DNA from: Saccharomycodes ludwigii
Lineage: Eukaryota; Ascomycota; Saccharomycetes; Saccharomycodales; Saccharomycodaceae
DNA: 64,000 nt
Direction of reading: 5' to 3'
Assembly (NCBI RefSeq): GCF_020623625.1
Contig: NC_060200.1
Span: forward strand, 186,001 to 250,000
Shown: positions 21,571-24,859 of the stretch, one piece after another
How positions within the stretch are numbered: the stretch's first letter is position 1
Layout of the letters: each line of letters begins with the position of its first letter
The notes under the pieces: generated by a model
Database searches by the model: none
What the model was told of the DNA's origin: nothing
Seen by the model: only the letters and a program-made list of their open reading frames with translations
Program-made: the position numbers and the translations under genes

Positions 21571-22368
21571 ATGTTAGTAAGTTTTAAAAGATTATTACTT
21601 AGGACCAGCAGTAATGCTGCAACAGCAAAGTGTATATTATCATTATCAAAAAAGCCATTATCACAACAGATATATAGATATCAAAGCACTAAAACACCAG
21701 CTAACGTTGATAAGTCTCAAGAATTAGATGACGCTACTATTGACAACTGGCTTGAAGCTATTGCTTCGTTGAAAAAAGAGTTTAATGGTCAGGAATATTT
21801 GCCAGACAACTCCTTGACTCCTCCTGGTGTTACCCGTTTAAACATTATGCAAGAAGTCAATGCTATGGATAATTACAAGAAAAATTTTACTCCTACGAGT
21901 GAACAGTTAGCAATGCTAGAGAGTTTAAAGGACAAACCAATCCCAGAACGCAGCGATCCAATTTTACAACACGTGACTAATATGATTATGAGACATGGGA
22001 AGAGAGAAAGAGCTTCCAAGATCTTGAGCCGTGCACTATACCTTGTTTTTATTCAATTACGTCAAGATCCTATTGAAATTTTGAAGAAATGTTTGGATGA
22101 CTTGGCCCCACTAATGATTGTTAAAACTTTTAAAACTGGTGTTGCTAAAGCTGCTACTATTCCGGTTCCACTAAATAAAAGACAACGTAACAGATTAGCT
22201 TGGAAATGGATTGTAGAAGGTAGCGCCAAAAGACCTAGTAAAGACTTTAGTGTTAGGTTAGGGGAAGAATTGGTCTCTGTTTATAACGGAAATTCCAGTG
22301 GGTTTGAAAAAAGGGATTCTATTCATAAAACAGCTATTGCCCATAGAGCTTACATCAAATTGAGGTAG
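21571..22368 (+). CDS. RSM7: Mitochondrial ribosomal protein uS7m
   Basis: Small-subunit mitoribosomal protein of the S7 family, which binds the 3' major domain of 15S rRNA. The 265-residue protein has an Arg/Ser-rich mitochondrial presequence, then the S7 domain in its C-terminal half: [19 protein letters not shown] at about residues 130-148, [14 protein letters not shown] and [19 protein letters not shown]. These are diagnostic of S7. It matches S. cerevisiae Rsm7 (YJR113C), which neighbours NNF1; here about 20 kb lies between them. It is convergent with the VanZ-like gene, as YJR113C is with YJR112W-A. Confidence 0.95.
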
Positions 22369-22405: not shown

Positions 22406-22841
22406 CTAGTTTATATAATAATAAAAGTAGTTTACCAGTAAACCACAGAAAGAACCCAGAATATTTGCGCAAATGTCCAATATATCGAAACTTCTTGAGG
22501 GATTCAATATTTTTTGTAGGAACTCTGAACCAATACCGGCTACAAGACAGCATGTAAATACGGATAAATGTATTTTATTCAAAGTAACGTAGTAATTTGT
22601 GTATTGGAAAACAGATATACTCTTGAAAAATAATATAGTTTCAATCATAAACACGGTAAAATGCAGTATTTTATCATTTCCTATAGTGTCATTGTTGAGT
22701 GCATCTTGGGATATTATTGTTTTGTTAGATAGGCCTAAGGTATAATACTATCGGTATTGATATAATAAACAGAATCGCATATCTACAGTTTATAGATAAT
22801 TCGAAATTTTTTGAATTTGATTTTAGGTGATAGGAGACCAT
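22406..22841 (-). CDS. VanZ-like small membrane protein; candidate +1 programmed frameshift gene
   Basis: Two overlapping minus-strand frames make one 144-residue protein if a +1 shift occurs. Frame A starts at ATG 22841 and gives residues 1-35 with a hydrophobic segment (YAILFIISIPIVLYL); it would stop as a 38-residue product at TAA three codons later. Frame B continues to 22406 and carries the VanZ-family motif NDKILHF, a second hydrophobic stretch, then IGSEFLQKILNPSRSFDILDICANILGS split over the last two helices. The frames meet at CTT AGG C (22739-22733), the known Ty1/ABP140-type +1 slip heptamer: reading CTT, skipping A, reading GGC enters frame B exactly. It is convergent with RSM7 like S. 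cerevisiae YJR112W-A. Alternatives: an indel error, or an intron with a poor donor (GTAGAT) that would remove the first membrane helix. Function unknown. Confidence 0.72.
22733..22739 (-). promoter_or_regulatory. Candidate +1 ribosomal frameshift heptamer CTT-AGG-C
   Basis: On the minus strand the zero frame reads TAC CTT AGG CCT ATC TAA. CTT AGG C is identical to the Ty1 and ABP140 shift site, where peptidyl-tRNA-Leu slips +1 while the AGG codon waits for its tRNA. The +1 frame downstream is the VanZ core. No recoding activity can be proved from DNA alone. Confidence 0.65.
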
Positions 22842-24118: not shown

Positions 24119-24859
24119 ATGAAGTTGGTAACCATGGATAATTTAAGTTTAACACAACAATATCTTTTAGCAGATAAAATACGTTCCAAGTTATACAACT
24201 GCGTAAATAACACTAAAGCACAACACCGAAACAAGGAGTACAATTTACGTGTATTGGTTGGCCATGCCATGCTCTTGGATAAATTAATGGATAATTTGAA
24301 TACTACCTTGACTACTAATGCCAGTAGTTGTACTACCGTCACTTTTGCCGAAGAGGAGAATGCTAAAAAAGTTGAAGTCCAAGAAGAGTACCATAATAAT
24401 AATGATGATGATGATTTTTTTTATAGTTATTCTTCTAGTGATGAAGATGAAGAGGATGAGGACGACTATGCTGGTACTGACGATGATGATGATGACGATG
24501 ATGTCGATGAAGTTTATACCGTTCATAATTATAGCAATATTGACAATAATGCTACTGACCGGAATGAACCTGAGTTTCAATATCGTTTACATAAAGTGGC
24601 CTCAAATAATGGATGTGGTATTAGTAACGTTAATAGTGGTATAAAAATATCACACCATACAGAGGAAGATGAAGAAGATAGCGATGATGAAAGGGATAAC
24701 ATTATAGTACATCATATATCCATTGAAAATGAGAATAACGTTAGAAATATTGGTAATGTTACAAGGATTAACACGCATGATGCCATTAAGAGGAGTATAA
24801 CACATGATAATAGCAGAAATGAGGTAGATTTAGGTACCTTAAATGTGATATGTGTGTGA
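24119..24859 (+). CDS. ECM13: Ecm13/YJR115W family protein
   Basis: 246-residue protein whose N-terminal 65 residues hold the only ordered part: [17 protein letters not shown], then [21 protein letters not shown]. From memory this matches S. cerevisiae Ecm13 and its ohnolog YJR115W, small proteins of unknown biochemical role. The remainder is highly acidic and Asn/Asp-rich, with Asp runs at about 122-129. Position supports the call: it lies between counterparts of YJR113C (RSM7) and YBL041W (PRE7), where a single pre-duplication ancestor of ECM13 (YBL043W) and YJR115W should be. Met6 is an alternative start with a better-looking context for the conserved block. Confidence 0.75.

Follow-up and report, generated by a model that had tools for sequence, protein, structure and literature searches.

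Overlapping frames and their neighbourhood

The window analysed here is a 64,000-nucleotide stretch of the Saccharomycodes ludwigii genome, and on its minus strand two overlapping reading frames occupy positions 22406..22841. We observed directly that the first of them (ORF1, the zero frame, 22725..22841) starts with an ATG at 22841 and runs for 38 codons to a TAA ending at 22725, and that the second (ORF2, the +1 frame, 22406..22735) supplies 109 residues after a shift, followed by a TAA, and holds the VanZ core (NDKILHF and GSEFLQ). Where the frames meet, the zero frame reads TAC CTT AGG CCT ATC TAA, with the slip heptamer CTT-AGG-C at 22733..22739. When CTTA is read as one step, with the A at 22736 skipped, a single open frame for a 144-residue protein results, in which residues 1-35 come from ORF1 and contain most of the first hydrophobic stretch. 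The possible shift window is about 7 codons long, bounded by a +1-frame stop that lies 3 codons upstream of the heptamer and by the zero-frame stop, before which 4 codons including CTT can be read. The first ATG of the +1 frame, at 22648, corresponds to residue 65 of the joined protein and thus comes after NDKILHF (residues 55-61); therefore, neither frame alone has both a start and the full VanZ core. Re-reading of the sequence confirmed the first-pass annotation as to the ATG 22841 frame, the second frame running to 22406 and the CTT-AGG-C at 22739-22733. Its 144-residue VanZ protein, made by joining the frames at a skipped A, was borne out by the translation and the Pfam match, and its statement that the zero frame stops three codons later is correct when counted after CTT.

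The family match was also observed directly. The Pfam VanZ profile (PF04892, cut-off 30.1 bits) matches the +1 piece with 34.0 bits and the joined protein with 33.4 bits, while the 38-residue ORF1 alone has no Pfam match up to an E value of 1. Since the joined protein scores slightly below the +1 piece alone, the profile lends no support to the N-terminal part. A six-frame search of the 12.5 Mb genome (E up to 0.001) reported one PF04892 match and hence no second candidate ortholog. On the plus strand, at 21571..22368, lies the convergent gene for the mitochondrial ribosomal protein uS7m (RSM7), whose top match among PDB sequences is a mitochondrial uS7m (E 1.4e-83); RSM7 (YJR113C) is presumably also the convergent neighbour of YJR112W-A in S. 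cerevisiae. Taken together, the protein family, the single VanZ match, the neighbour and the slip site, rather than an alignment, lead us to regard the minus-strand locus at 22406..22841 as the apparent S. ludwigii ortholog of LLP1/YJR112W-A. Elsewhere in the window, a 246-codon ORF at 24119-24859 is rich in Asp and Glu and has no Pfam match.

S. cerevisiae YJR112W-A has been placed in a fungal VanZ clade (PMC12419801), so that the VanZ type is common to S. cerevisiae LLP1 and the S. ludwigii protein. The title of a 2025 J Cell Biol article, given in the reference list of PMC12661321, describes LLP1 as a pyrophosphatase in the homeostasis of dolichol-linked oligosaccharide, and going by this title a lipid-linked pyrophosphatase function like that of Llp1 is probable for the S. 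ludwigii product. Searches with the joined protein itself gave no match among PDB sequences up to an E value of 1, and the bacterial and archaeal genomes that were scanned yielded 103 pattern-matching stretches, with no relative confirmed among them. The single-sequence structure prediction of the joined protein (pLDDT 47.3) was too poor for use.

A probable +1 shift at CTT-AGG-C and its alternatives

In the mechanism that we propose, translation would start at 22841 and proceed until CUU reaches the P site with AGG, which would be slowly decoded, in the A site. A forward slip by one base would then let the P-site Leu-tRNA re-pair with UUA, and GGC would be read next in the +1 frame. Ribosomes that slip would produce the 144-residue VanZ-type protein, and ribosomes that do not slip would read three more codons, stop and release a 38-residue peptide. 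We infer that the shift occurs in S. ludwigii, and likewise its efficiency and the identity of the slipping Leu-tRNA. A stimulatory RNA structure was considered and rejected, as neither flank of the slip site folds clearly better than shuffled sequences (z of -0.22 upstream and +0.53 downstream).

The first-pass annotation had named RNA splicing as an alternative, and we checked for introns on the sequence. A short intron joining both frames, as annotated for S. cerevisiae YJR112W-A, would find 13 internal GT..AG pairs of at least 40 bases in the gene, such as 22786-22705 (82 nt) and 22786-22735 (52 nt), but none of these 13 candidates has good signals. GTATGT and TACTAAC are the consensus sequences of the donor and the branch site, respectively; the best donors (GTATTA, GTTTAT and GTAGAT) have two mismatches to the former, and the best branch sites among the 13 internal candidates have two mismatches to the latter. 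In addition, DKILHF is kept by three candidates (52, 82 and 91 nt), each of which removes the first hydrophobic stretch, and we consider an intron within the gene very unlikely. A one-base indel in an ordinary VanZ gene, caused by a sequencing or assembly error or marking a recent pseudogene, would give an identical picture, with CTTAGGC at the frame change by chance. However, an in-frame CTTAGGC within 7 given codons is expected by chance at about 7e-5 (a rough figure from the genome frequency), two other S. ludwigii genes have canonical sites at their frame changes, LLP1 of other yeasts is reported to have a matching site (PMC12661321, PMC5433688), and the reference assembly of strain NBRC 1722 is described as built from PacBio reads at about 200x, with Illumina polishing (PMC8567612). 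An indel thus has a smaller chance still of being the right explanation. Just as improbable is translation of the +1 frame by itself, via internal or near-cognate initiation, with ORF1 as an upstream ORF: an 80-residue ATG frame does exist within ORF2 (22648-22406), but this internal start would lose NDKILHF, and the +1-frame stop 3 codons before the heptamer leaves little room for an alternative start that includes the first helix.

Taken by itself, the heptamer is no rarity. CTTAGGC occurs four times in the window, compared to 3.08 expected from shuffles, and 265 times in the whole genome (140 forward and 125 reverse), where the reversed word occurs 464 times; the GC content is 30.1% in the window and 29.6% in the analysed part of the assembly. 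We screened the first 20 listed of the 265 genome sites, including the four of the window, for an ATG-started zero frame of at least 30 codons whose stop is no more than 10 codons away, combined with a +1 frame that stays open for at least 60 codons. This layout was found at one of the 20 sites, that of LLP1; the ABP140 site described below lies outside those 20. Copia-type elements, of which the genome has 14 reverse transcriptase (RVT_2) matches, gave no extra support for the slip site when two loci were considered (L068-L077 were left out). At L078 (G000:C1:21600-24000), another of the 20 screened sites, CTTAGGC stands in a long ORF, in its zero frame, and this ORF meets no stop before the analysed piece ends; at L098 (G000:C2:2900-3800) it stands in the zero frame of a 901-base stretch free of zero-frame stops. 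Copia-type reverse transcriptase matches follow about 2.3 kb downstream of both heptamers, and shifting at these heptamers would leave the long frame; we count these in-frame heptamers against the frameshift reading. The +1 site of Ty1 gag-pol has the identical heptamer (PMC12719033), but Ty1 is a retrotransposon. Overall, the mechanism of the first-pass annotation, in which a VanZ-like gene is read with a +1 shift at CTT-AGG-C, draws support from the layout of the frames, the family match, the lack of a good intron within the gene and two sister genes, and programmed +1 frameshifting of LLP1 is, as predicted from the sequence, with high confidence the best explanation of the locus.

Other probable frameshift genes and the tRNA set of S. 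ludwigii

The two sister genes were observed directly in the genome. A Methyltransf_12 search led to the ortholog of ABP140/TRM140 (L052:363-2076), in which the ORF at 363-1085 starts with MGVADLIKKFE, which we take to be the actin-binding start of Abp140, and the +1 frame encodes the methyltransferase. The frames are joined by a +1 shift at a zero-frame CTT-AGG-C (1071-1077), where the zero frame has 4 codons including CTT and then stops. For the ortholog of EST3 (L066, contig C3, about 1411-2128 counted on the reverse complement), PF10341 matches two overlapping frames with 39.3 and 26.4 bits (27.3 with neighbours; cut-off 26.5). These frames join at a zero-frame CTT-AGT-T (1741-1747), which is the known EST3 frameshift site, with a TGA directly after AGT. 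Judged by their reading frames, S. ludwigii ABP140 and EST3, like LLP1, would need classical +1 sites, and these sites are the same heptamer as that of LLP1 or a sister of it, in genes for unrelated proteins. PF02100, used for OAZ1, had no match in the genome, and its controls also gave none. Likewise, PF10544, the family that we presume to be linked to YFS1, had no match in the genome, and this profile may simply be too distant.

We searched for the tRNA genes that bear on decoding at the slip site. One gene for tRNA-Arg(CCU) was observed directly (pattern with up to 2 mismatches, and ARAGORN), compared to at least 8 genes for tRNA-Arg(UCU); as counted by gene number, the tRNA for the A-site codon AGG is therefore scarce. 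One search with Leu-type patterns found 17 places, and a second found 2. By their matched letters, the 17 places comprise 8 of UAA type, 8 of CAA type and 1 with AAG, and ARAGORN agrees on those Leu places save L037, which it calls Val(CAC) with an intron. One gene was found for tRNA-Leu(AAG) (L040:1492-1575) and one for tRNA-Leu(UAG) (L064, reverse, 1373-1536), the latter interrupted by an 83-base intron; L065 (reverse, 1028-1537) holds a tentative tRNA-Leu(CAG) gene with a 422-base intron. Because these copy numbers come from patterns and BLAST, and the tRNA family search scored 63 of 914 candidates, they may miss copies.

According to PMC12719033, which relays Farabaugh 2006, a need for frameshifting in ABP140 and EST3 almost always goes with a lack of tRNA-Leu(IAG) and with abundant tRNA-Leu(UAG). 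The paper also states that the ABP140/EST3 shift is required in none of the species that branched off earlier than the split between Kluyveromyces and other Saccharomycetaceae. S. ludwigii departs from both statements: the genes found are one AAG and one UAG, and although the species stands outside Saccharomycetaceae, its ABP140 and EST3 appear to need the shift. By the reported correlation, a tRNA-Leu(AAG) gene would be expected with an absence of frameshifting, and it therefore counts against frameshifting in S. ludwigii. As the words "almost always" imply, the absence of tRNA-Leu(IAG) is a correlate and no defining feature of CUU-A +1 sites.

Earlier work on LLP1 and the age of the sites

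The first-pass annotation had considered a frameshifted VanZ gene to be a new member of its kind, which is wrong; its hunch about YJR112W-A was right, as this gene is published as frameshifted. The Ashbya gene ABR148CA/YJR112W-A was listed in 2013 among genes apparently translated across frameshifts (PMC3737163), and in 2017 a +1 shift at CTT-A-GGC was reported to be needed by both YJR112W-A copies of Zygosaccharomyces parabailii (PMC5433688). The gene was tested in S. cerevisiae in 2025, where RNA-seq is reported to be uniform across the supposed intron, footprints to lie in the +1 frame and reporters to shift with an efficiency of about 40%, and CUU_A.GG_C is described as conserved in Saccharomyces LLP1 (PMC12661321). 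For S. cerevisiae, these data contradict the divergent introns in YJR112W-A mentioned by PMC4202332, and the annotated 49-bp intron is reported to be without a terminal AG (PMC3226532). Because PMC3737163, PMC5433688 and PMC12661321 report YJR112W-A recoding, the LLP1 frameshift is not novel; the recoding itself is already known and the S. ludwigii case is a confirmation.

As in S. cerevisiae LLP1, the ORFs of the S. ludwigii gene overlap and meet at CUU-AGG-C close to the 5′ end, and just as no stimulatory context was seen in S. ludwigii, none is reported for S. cerevisiae (PMC12661321). In contrast, S. ludwigii belongs to Saccharomycodaceae and has a tRNA-Leu(AAG) gene. The orthologs of Ashbya gossypii (ABR148CA) and Z. 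parabailii are reported to need frameshifting too, but both species are Saccharomycetaceae. The taxonomy assigns S. ludwigii to Saccharomycodaceae (order Saccharomycodales) and Ashbya to Saccharomycetaceae, a separate family. Zygosaccharomyces also belongs to Saccharomycetaceae, and the two families are sisters. S. ludwigii itself is a wine yeast. A literature search for VanZ, frameshifting and yeast gave no such gene by title or start of abstract among the matches listed; a search for frameshifting in Saccharomycodes found nothing, and one for Hanseniaspora found nothing on these genes by title or start of abstract, so that the literature library searched gave no report for Saccharomycodaceae. 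What appears new is the host, S. ludwigii, outside Saccharomycetaceae.

The interest that is left lies in the age of the sites and in the exception to the tRNA correlation. Since three S. ludwigii genes seem to need canonical sites despite the AAG gene, the sites probably predate the family split, which suggests that these +1 sites are older than the separation of Saccharomycodaceae and Saccharomycetaceae. We lean towards the view that CUU-A shifting in LLP1, ABP140 and EST3 was already present in the common ancestor of both families, at a time when tRNA-Leu(IAG) was still there. A review puts frameshifting in ABP140, EST3 and antizyme at about 150 million years (PMC5009743); our claim concerns branching order, not years. 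If it is true, these sites did not depend for their origin on the loss of tRNA-Leu(IAG); scarce tRNA-Arg(CCU) may have been enough, with the slip made by tRNA-Leu(IAG) itself (through I34-A and G36-U pairs on UUA), or else the sites may run at lower efficiency in S. ludwigii. It also suggests that the absence of +1 frameshifting in Kluyveromyces may be a loss. S. ludwigii thus combines three genes with classical +1 sites and a tRNA set that the literature ties to non-frameshifting yeasts, and whether +1 frameshifting arose in connection with tRNA loss, as has been proposed, thereby becomes directly testable.
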